Below are positions 59,772 through 64,000 of a stretch of DNA of 64,000 nucleotides, piece by piece. The notes beneath the pieces were generated by a model that saw only the letters and a list, made by a program, of their open reading frames with translations, was not told where the DNA came from and did no database searches. Source of the stretch: Nitrospira sp. (GTDB lineage: Bacteria > Nitrospirota > Nitrospiria > Nitrospirales > Nitrospiraceae); the NCBI GenBank assembly GCA_024331045.1, contig JANDJC010000006.1, positions 1 through 64,000 on the forward strand, in the 5' to 3' direction. Position 1 is the stretch's first letter, and every line of letters begins with the position of its first letter. Made by a program: the position numbers and the translations under genes.

Positions 59772-61661
<1,890 letters not shown>

Positions 61662-61924: not shown

Positions 61925-62818
61925 ATGATGAAACGGTTTTTTCGGGGGTGGGGATGTGGCATGGCGTTGTTGATAGTAGTGGTCGGTCTGTGGCAGTGCC
62001 TCTGCCCTCCGAGTGGGTGGGCGCAAGCGGGAAAACCAGAGGGGCTTTATTATAAGTCCTGGGCCGTGGTCATTGGCATTGAACACTACGTGGTGGCGCC
62101 GCCCGTTCCAGGAGCGGTCACCGACGCCAAGCAGGTGGCAGAAGCGTTTCGGCGATTGGGTTTTGACGAAGTCGTGGAGATTTACGACAAGACCGCGACC
62201 TCCCGCCACCTCCATCAATTGTTGACCGATATTTTGCCCAGGAAAGTCGGTCGCATGGACCGGCTGGTGATCTTTTATACGGGCCATGTCGGGACTGCAC
62301 AGGATGCGGATGGCGAGGAGCGGAGTTACTTGGTGCCAATCGATGCGCAGATCGCCCATCCGGGTAAGGCTGTGACGGTGGGGCACCTAAAGGAATTTAC
62401 GAGAAGGACCGCCTCGAAACATACGGTGTTACTGTTTGATGCGCCTGTCTTTGGATGGGAGGTGACTCCGCCAGCCAAGCTGTCGCTAGAAGGCCGGGCG
62501 GTGCCCGAGGAGGAGATGGAACGACGAGCCGTTCAGGTGATCAGTGCGGCTCGCAAGGGCGAGTCTTCGATGCGTGTGGAGGGAAACAGCCTGTTTGTGC
62601 AGTCGCTCCTAGCCGGACTCGCTGGTCAAGCGGATCTGGACAGAAATGGCTGGCTGTTGGTTTCCGAGTTGGGGAGGTATCTTGTCGAGCAGGTTGAACA
62701 AGCATCCGGCGGTACCCAGCATCCCGTGAGTCTCAGAATCGATGGCGACGGCGATACCGTGTTGATTGAGGGGCGAAAGGAGTCTCTCACTGGAGGCCAC
62801 GAAGCAAACAGCCCCTGA
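61925..62818 (+). CDS. Secreted caspase-fold protein lacking the catalytic cysteine
   Basis: The 297-residue precursor has a signal peptide ('GMALLIVVVGLWQCLCPPSGWAQA'). The next 180 residues follow the peptidase C14 (caspase) fold: 'WAVVIGIEHY', 'GAVTDAKQVAEAFRRLGF', 'RLVIFYTGHVGTAQDADGEERSYLVPID'. The catalytic His is kept (H121), though 'YSGHG' is 'YTGHVG'. The strand that normally ends 'DACxSG' reads 'LLFDAPVFGWEV', with Pro174 in place of the catalytic Cys. It is probably enzymatically dead and acts as a binding protein. The C-terminal part resembles the 'F...LL.GL.G..D.n.dG' region of metacaspases. Confidence 0.85.
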   Translation: MMKRFFRGWGCGMALLIVVVGLWQCLCPPSGWAQAGKPEGLYYKSWAVVIGIEHYVVAPPVPGAVTDAKQVAEAFRRLGFDEVVEIYDKTATSRHLHQLLTDILPRKVGRMDRLVIFYTGHVGTAQDADGEERSYLVPIDAQIAHPGKAVTVGHLKEFTRRTASKHTVLLFDAPVFGWEVTPPAKLSLEGRAVPEEEMERRAVQVISAARKGESSMRVEGNSLFVQSLLAGLAGQADLDRNGWLLVSELGRYLVEQVEQASGGTQHPVSLRIDGDGDTVLIEGRKESLTGGHEANSP

Positions 62819-62909: not shown

Positions 62910-63080
62910 CTAATCTTTTTCTCCTCCCTGCAGATAGCTCAACCCGATCTTGATGGCGCGGCGGGCGATTTCCGCCTGGCGCTCTGTCGGATAGGCGGCC
63001 AGGATCGCTGCCGCCTTGGGGTCCTGAATATCAAGATTCACGATCGTGATAACTCCATTTGCAATATGAATGTCCGCCAT
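62910..63080 (-). CDS. Small protein of 56 residues, unknown function (absent from the ORF track)
   Basis: Read from the minus strand, the ATG at 63080 gives 'MADIHIANGVITIVNLDIQ' followed by 'DPKAAAILAAYPTERQAEIARRAIKIGLSYLQGGEKD' and TAG at 62912. 'agaaaggatgg' is placed six to ten bases before the ATG. The sequence is soluble, Ala/Ile-rich, mixed strand then helix, and free of low-complexity bias. It is too short for the ORF track cut-off. No family was recognised. Confidence 0.6.
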   Translation of the reverse strand: MADIHIANGVITIVNLDIQDPKAAAILAAYPTERQAEIARRAIKIGLSYLQGGEKD

Positions 63081-63287
63081 AGGCCCATCCTTTCTCTTCA
63101 GGAAGTAGTTTTTTCAGAAGTCTGTCAGGTGACGACAGGAGGCCTGTCCTCCTTCTTGGCTTCGATGGTGTTTCGTTGACGATGTTGGGGGGGCATGTTA
63201 GCATGACATCGCTTTTTTCTGGGCTCAAAGTTGATCCCTCCAGGTCATGCTTCGGTCATCTTTGGTCGTCTCAAAGGAGGACGTGTT

Positions 63288-63857
63288 ATGGCGTGGCGAG
63301 CGATCCATCTCAAGCTCAAGCTGGCCGGAACCGGTCTTCTGGCCGTTTTTCTGCTGGGGTTGACGGCGTGCGGTGGTCCTCCCAAGTGGGTGCAACGGGG
63401 GTCGGGAGCGTTCAACGACAAAGATCAGAAGGCGTTTTACGGTGTGGGTTCGGTAGTGGGCGTCAAAAACGAACCGCTCGCGTGGGATACGGCTGAGAAT
63501 CGAGCCAGGGCGGAAATCGCCAAGACATTTGAAACCTATACGGGCTACTTGATGAGGGACTATGCTGCTTCAACGACGGCGGGGGATTTTACGCGGAACA
63601 CGGAAGAGCAACATGTGGAGCGGGCCATTAAAACGGTCACCACGGTGACGTTGAGCGGTGTACGCCCTATCGATCGCTACAAAGACGAGAAGAGCAATAC
63701 CTATTACGTGCTGGCCATGCTGAGTCTGGAAGACATGAAAAATAATTTAGAGCGGGCCAAGGAGCTGAATGCGGAGATGCGCGACTTTGTCAGGCGCAAT
63801 GCAGATCGGTTGTTCGATCGTTTAGAGAGGGAGGAAGAGAAGCGCGGGATTCGATAG
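63288..63857 (+). CDS. LPP20-family lipoprotein
   Basis: The ATG at 63288 has 'aaaggagg' seven bases upstream and gives 189 residues. The signal ends in the lipobox 'LGLTACGG'. The mature part ('PKWVQRGSGAFNDKDQKAFYGVGSVVGVKNEPLAWDTAENRARAEIAKTFETY') has the LPP20 pattern, including 'TYYVLAMLSLEDMKNNLERAKELNAEM'. Such lipoproteins of the outer membrane have no agreed role. A second lipoprotein gene follows. Confidence 0.88.
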   Translation: MAWRAIHLKLKLAGTGLLAVFLLGLTACGGPPKWVQRGSGAFNDKDQKAFYGVGSVVGVKNEPLAWDTAENRARAEIAKTFETYTGYLMRDYAASTTAGDFTRNTEEQHVERAIKTVTTVTLSGVRPIDRYKDEKSNTYYVLAMLSLEDMKNNLERAKELNAEMRDFVRRNADRLFDRLEREEEKRGIR

Positions 63858-63897: not shown

Positions 63898-64000
63898 ATG
63901 ACCGTGGTCCAAAGCAAGTTCCTGCCGGGTATGTGGTCAATCGTCATGTTGCTTGTGGCGGCTGGTTGTGGCCATGAAGTCAAAGTGACGCGCGTGGATG
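63898..64000 (+). CDS. Lipoprotein, 5' end only, possibly LpoB-like
   Basis: The ATG at 63898 follows 'gaggagg'. The 34 visible residues hold a lipoprotein signal ('SIVMLLVAAGC') and then 'GHEVKVTRVD'. In LpoB-type penicillin-binding protein activators a lipobox is followed by a similar 'VTRVD' segment, and they often sit next to LPP20-like genes. The rest of the gene is outside the window, so the family call is tentative. Confidence 0.7.
   Translation, partial: MTVVQSKFLPGMWSIVMLLVAAGCGHEVKVTRVD

Follow-up and report, generated by a model that had tools for sequence, protein, structure and literature searches.

We describe here a gene of Nitrospira sp. that appears to encode an exported caspase homologue in which the fold has been kept and the protease chemistry lost. 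The gene lies on the plus strand at positions 61925-62818 of the window, by which we mean the whole 64,000-nucleotide stretch that was analysed (GenBank assembly GCA_024331045.1, contig JANDJC010000006.1, positions 1 to 64,000), and reads from an ATG start to give a protein of 297 amino acids with a C14 peptidase domain at residues 45-267. On balance we lean towards this protein being a periplasmic, non-catalytic pseudo-orthocaspase that would work as a binding or scaffold module.

The Pfam family PF00656 (Peptidase_C14) matches residues 45-267, a span that takes in the C-terminal part of the domain, with an E-value of 7.2e-15; the score, 55.7 bits, is above the gathering cut-off of 21.4. An AlphaFold2 (AF2) model, for which 20 sequences were used as input, gave a mean predicted local distance difference test (pLDDT) score of 72 and a predicted template modelling (pTM) score of 0.74. 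The best solved structures recovered with this model in Foldseek were the MALT1 paracaspase (6e-12) and the Geobacter C14 protein 3bij (2.6e-9), followed by yeast metacaspase and caspases, which places the protein, at moderate model confidence, within the caspase-hemoglobinase fold of peptidase family C14. A sequence search of the PDB with the single protein as query had returned chance matches only, so the fold search was needed. The NCBIfam model NF047832 (caspase_w_EACC1) aligns to residues 45-259 (3e-10), but at 39.8 bits versus a curated cut-off of 140 the protein is not a member of that family. Residues 1-33 (61925-62023, plus strand) read as a putative signal peptide. The N-terminus, MMKRFFRGWGCGMALLIVVVGLWQ...GWA/QAGKPEG (the slash marks the putative cleavage), resembles by eye a Sec leader for signal peptidase I, the leaders of orthologues end in AEA, AYA or AHA followed by Q, which is a shared xxA/Q junction, and residues 2-25 form a helix in the AF2 model.

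To follow the active site through the family we use 166 distinct orthologues, 164 of which cover it. The catalytic-position His of the window protein, His121 (codon CAT, 62285-62287), sits within 'YTGHV' where active-type relatives have 'FFAGHG', and it is His in 164/164 orthologues. The catalytic Cys position, as aligned to C14 relatives with GHG...DACYSG, is Pro174 (codon CCT, 62444-62446), within 'LLFDAPVFGWE' as against 'LIDACYSG'. Across the orthologues this position is Pro in 66, Ala in 52, Asn in 26, Gly in 17, Ser in two and Glu in one, and it is never Cys. The His-Cys dyad that defines an active orthocaspase is thus broken in all 164 orthologues, always with the His kept and the Cys missing, and the combination of a p20 domain with a substituted dyad is that of a pseudo-orthocaspase. 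The residue after the His has also changed: in caspases the second Gly of GHG forms part of the oxyanion hole, and here it is Val122 (62288-62290), with Ala, Thr, Ser or Val in 163 of the 164 orthologues. Since both the nucleophilic Cys and the oxyanion-hole Gly would have been lost in the ancestor of the Nitrospiraceae, proteolysis by the usual mechanism should not be possible.

We also looked for a replacement nucleophile among the Cys, Ser and Thr residues of the domain. The caspase domain is entirely free of Cys in 164/166 orthologues, and Ser45, at the very start of the domain, is the sole near-invariant candidate. As no other near-invariant Ser, Thr or Cys was found in the domain, no substitute is evident and a shifted nucleophile can be rejected. 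The preliminary description of this gene, as a secreted caspase homologue with a readable His and with Pro for Cys in 'DAPVFG', therefore holds, both in the Pfam, leader and fold data and in the alignment. The structure prediction that it called for does match known C14 structures, and neither of the findings that it named as fatal was made, there being no alternative Cys in the domain and no orthologue with DACxSG. The orthologue alignment takes the claim further than first stated, as the loss of Cys appears ancestral and fixed in the Nitrospiraceae; what does not stand is Pro as the conserved state, because position 174 drifts among Pro, Ala, Asn, Gly, Ser and Glu.

Position 174 lies at the 84th percentile of variability, and a flanking residue is likewise among the more variable (84th-85th percentile), whereas no variation at all is seen at His121, Trp178, Asp140 or His166. 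Asp140, His166, Arg191 and Arg201 are conserved in 164/164 orthologues. Trp178 (62456-62458, plus strand), beside the dead site, is a family-specific invariant: it is present in 164/164 family members, and active-type relatives have Ile, Val, Leu, Tyr, Glu or a gap. An EF-hand-like loop, D237-x-D-x-N-G-W-L-x-x-x-E248 (62633-62668, plus strand), is also kept, with D237 in 165/165, G242 in 166/166 and E248 in 165/165 orthologues, and it is found in active-type relatives too. Its ninth position is hydrophobic, unlike that of the canonical EF-hand pattern.

When the window's own genome and 175 genomes of its family were searched, the gene was found in nearly all. A C14-like match at 1e-5 is present in 173/175 family genomes, with most E-values below 1e-90. 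The family appears confined to the Nitrospiraceae within an evenly drawn sample of 396 genomes of the phylum, where strong matches (E <= 1e-50) occur in 108/110 Nitrospiraceae genomes and in none outside the family; G111 and G027 are the only Nitrospiraceae genomes of that sample in which no strong match was found. The best matches elsewhere in the class are at about 1e-43 and weaker, and in the class relatives that can be aligned at the site the dyad is intact in 15/21 rows. In a maximum-likelihood tree, the difference between Cys and no Cys is accounted for by one change, on the stem of the Nitrospiraceae, and residue 174 changes at least 12 times in all with no reversion to Cys. A single ancestral loss is the simplest reading of this tree but is not proven by it, since its 11 relatives were chosen as Cys-bearing and some branches are long. 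Pairwise ratios of non-synonymous to synonymous substitution (dN/dS) are about 0.06-0.15 in most comparisons, and 0.29 and 0.34 in two close pairs, pointing to purifying selection; they are similar to those of the nearby COG3014 and LPP20b genes and above those of the neighbouring metabolic genes.

Most orthologues are longer than the window protein, at about 460 amino acids, and carry a tetratricopeptide repeat (TPR) domain after the caspase fold. This domain is missing from the window form and from 31 other orthologues, a count from which L078 was dropped because its locus is cut. Five changes between long and short forms are needed on the tree, and we found no residual TPR coding downstream of the stop codon in the window; short in-frame remnants follow the stop in a few other short forms. 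We read this as an ancestral TPR domain that the window's lineage has lost. The repeated loss of the tail implies that what is essential resides in the caspase-fold domain, and it is this part that selection seems to keep everywhere.

Because the Cys seems to have been lost once and never regained, and yet the gene is kept in almost every sampled species of the family, the dead form itself probably does a job at the cell envelope. A role as scaffold or regulator there would be in keeping with the putative signal peptide and with a TPR domain in the ancestor. In the mechanism we favour, the protein would be exported to the periplasm, where a protein or peptide ligand would be bound but not cleaved in the former substrate groove, lined by His121 and perhaps by Trp178 and Arg191. 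The EF-hand-like loop at 237-248 may bind calcium, and in most species the TPR tail could recruit a second partner. Envelope lipoproteins are no more than candidates for a partner of the protein.

Several points weigh against this reading. The invariance of His121 is not by itself exceptional, as 30/244 sites are invariant. The signal peptide, and with it the periplasmic location, is judged by eye, and confidence in the structural model is moderate overall and low in the loops around the site. Position 67 varies among Asp, Ser, Glu and Gly (Asp in 123, Ser in 25) and position 172 among Asp, Asn and Glu (Asp in 126, Asn in 36), both of them assigned to the acidic pocket that gives basic specificity. 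With two expected pocket acids not strictly kept, substrate binding of the classic orthocaspase kind looks doubtful, and a ligand other than a basic peptide is conceivable.

Gene order around the pseudo-caspase is largely kept across the sampled genera, and runs from an S9-type hydrolase, a major facilitator superfamily transporter, riboflavin synthase and a coenzyme A (CoA) ligase on the opposite strand, through the pseudo-caspase, to LPP20, LpoB, COG3014-like, LPP20 and PIN genes; the names LPP20 and LpoB come from Pfam, and the others were read from the sequence. The divergent upstream neighbour in the window is an acyl/acetyl-CoA synthetase (59772-61661, minus strand). The two lipoprotein genes and the small gene that the preliminary description had placed next to it lie downstream: these are an LPP20-family gene at 63231-63857 (plus strand; Pfam 8e-6), an LpoB-family gene that starts at 63898 on the plus strand and runs past the window end at 64000 (Pfam 7e-42 on L054:8899-9513), and a convergent open reading frame (ORF) of 56 amino acids at 62910-63080 on the minus strand. 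The LPP20-LpoB-COG3014-like-LPP20 cluster (63231 to the window end; L054:8232-12143) is conserved across Nitrospiraceae genera. By tblastn, the small ORF (MADIHIANGVITIVNLDIQDPKAAAILAAYPTERQAEIARRAIKIGLSYLQGGEKD) is present in 189/202 fetched Nitrospiraceae loci, at 52-85% identity in most, and its dN/dS is low in most pairs; its only Pfam match is a sub-threshold one to FliG_M (0.0014). Second copies of the pseudo-caspase occur in tandem at G077:C69 and elsewhere in the genome at G055:C1:3976495-3977817 and G047:C92:34658-35983, and no small ORF was found in the stretches fetched for the G055 and G047 copies.

This neighbourhood suggests an alternative in which the pseudo-caspase belongs, together with the LPP20-LpoB-COG3014-LPP20 genes, to a lipoprotein machine of the outer membrane controlling the synthesis of peptidoglycan. 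Among loci with sufficient flanking sequence only one lacks the adjacency to the cluster, the LpoB match is strong, and a signal peptide and TPR tail would suit such a machine. However, the conserved convergent gene lies in between, so a transcript shared with LPP20 and LpoB is not supported and the idea of an operon with LpoB is weakened. Adjacency to the upstream metabolic neighbour is as well conserved as that to the cluster, and at L048 the cluster is gone next to an intact pseudo-caspase gene. The lipoprotein neighbourhood is therefore real and conserved, as the preliminary description had it, but says little for a functional link; such a link to LpoB is possible, with support that does not reach beyond synteny, and we consider the machine as a whole quite unlikely. 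The pseudo-caspase might otherwise serve as a decoy for an active paralogous caspase-like protease, or form heterodimers with it, and so regulate it as cFLIP does caspase-8. In ten complete or near-complete relatives, several genomes do encode intact-dyad C14 proteins (GHG...D(S/C/T)C) beside the pseudo form, but their numbers vary widely, with none seen at one extreme and many at the other, whereas the pseudo form is almost always there. The window's genome is about 85% complete, and the further C14-like proteins detected in it all lack the His as well as the Cys; in G055 nothing else of C14 type passes the threshold except the second copy of the pseudo-caspase. That the pseudo form does not track its intact paralogues speaks against a simple decoy, and a regulatory role of this kind seems highly unlikely. 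The C14-like proteins of the window's genome (L002:2-2029, minus strand; L003:241-2313, plus; L004:1387-3600, minus) are longer and carry at the C-terminus a caspase-like domain that matches weakly; two of them also have weak CARDB matches, and the three are possibly a second pseudo-caspase family.

The absolute conservation (164/164) of His121, Asp140, His166, Arg191 and Arg201, and the presence of family-specific invariants near the old site, could also reflect a repurposed enzyme in which these residues form a metal site or activate water for non-covalent hydrolysis. His166 and Asp140, with Asp112, are however common among active-type relatives as well and so may be structural, the model is poor in the loops at the site, and no family with such chemistry is known; we think this distinctly improbable. 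A decaying relic of a protease, or a sequencing error, would account for the variable Cys site and its variable flank, and for the loss of the TPR tail in several lineages. This is refuted by the conservation data, in that the frame is open in about 160 species, dN/dS is well below 1, the invariant sites persist and retention is near universal. A recent loss or an error in the read is likewise rejected by the absence of Cys in 164 orthologues, leaving decay or error an almost negligible prospect. The bolder version of our preferred reading, that this is a family-defining exported pseudo-protease whose groove has been rebuilt around the invariant His and Trp into a new site, either for ligand binding or for non-proteolytic catalysis, on which these nitrite oxidizers and complete ammonia-oxidizing (comammox) bacteria depend, we hold to be unlikely.

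Compared with known systems, the Nitrospira family is, on the features compared here, a variant of the pseudo-orthocaspase kind. With bacterial pseudo-orthocaspases it shares the C14 p20 fold, a substituted His-Cys dyad, presumed inactivity, conservation as clades and optional extra domains. The acidic pocket is conserved in known pseudo-orthocaspases and, at the residues assigned to it, only partly kept here, so that the family does not conform to the cyanobacterial type. Active orthocaspases (L106-L126 from other Nitrospirota families; Geobacter GSU0716, PDB 3bij) have in common with it the fold, the GH motif, the DxxxxG turn and the EF-hand-like ADxNxDG...EL, but they keep the Cys and the Gly after the His; the Nitrospira family lacks both and has the family-specific W178, R191, R201, K148 and K156. 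MALT1, the best structural match, is only about 16-18% identical and is an active Arg-specific protease with immunoglobulin domains. The zinc-finger prodomain or long p20-p10 linker of type I and II metacaspases is absent, as the protein has an N-terminal signal peptide and no such Pfam domains. Bacterial pseudo-caspases have mostly been discussed for Cyanobacteria and Alphaproteobacteria, and a link to photosynthesis has been suggested. Klemencic et al. 2019 (PMC6426788) made a survey of pseudo-orthocaspases, the main text of which does not mention Nitrospira or Nitrospiraceae; compared with the proteins described there, the Nitrospira family differs in its invariant His, the replacement of Cys by Pro, Ala, Asn or Gly, its apparent export, its fusion to TPR in most species and its lineage. 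SyOC of Synechocystis is one of the bacterial pseudo-orthocaspases, and its knock-out is reported to have raised tolerance to oxidative stress (PMC7889975). We found no report of a Nitrospira pseudo-orthocaspase in the open-licence literature.

For the biology of these bacteria, a near-universal, exported pseudo-orthocaspase of apparently single origin in non-photosynthetic nitrite oxidizers would mean that an unrelated lineage has put the caspase fold to non-proteolytic use. Passages of a 2012 survey of prokaryotic caspase homologues put the conservation of the HC dyad at only 57% of Nitrospirae homologues and do not describe this family (PMC3501461); the Nitrospira pseudo-caspases may help to explain that figure. 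With its nucleophile site drifting and its His invariant, the family offers a direct and testable case for function in a dead caspase domain.
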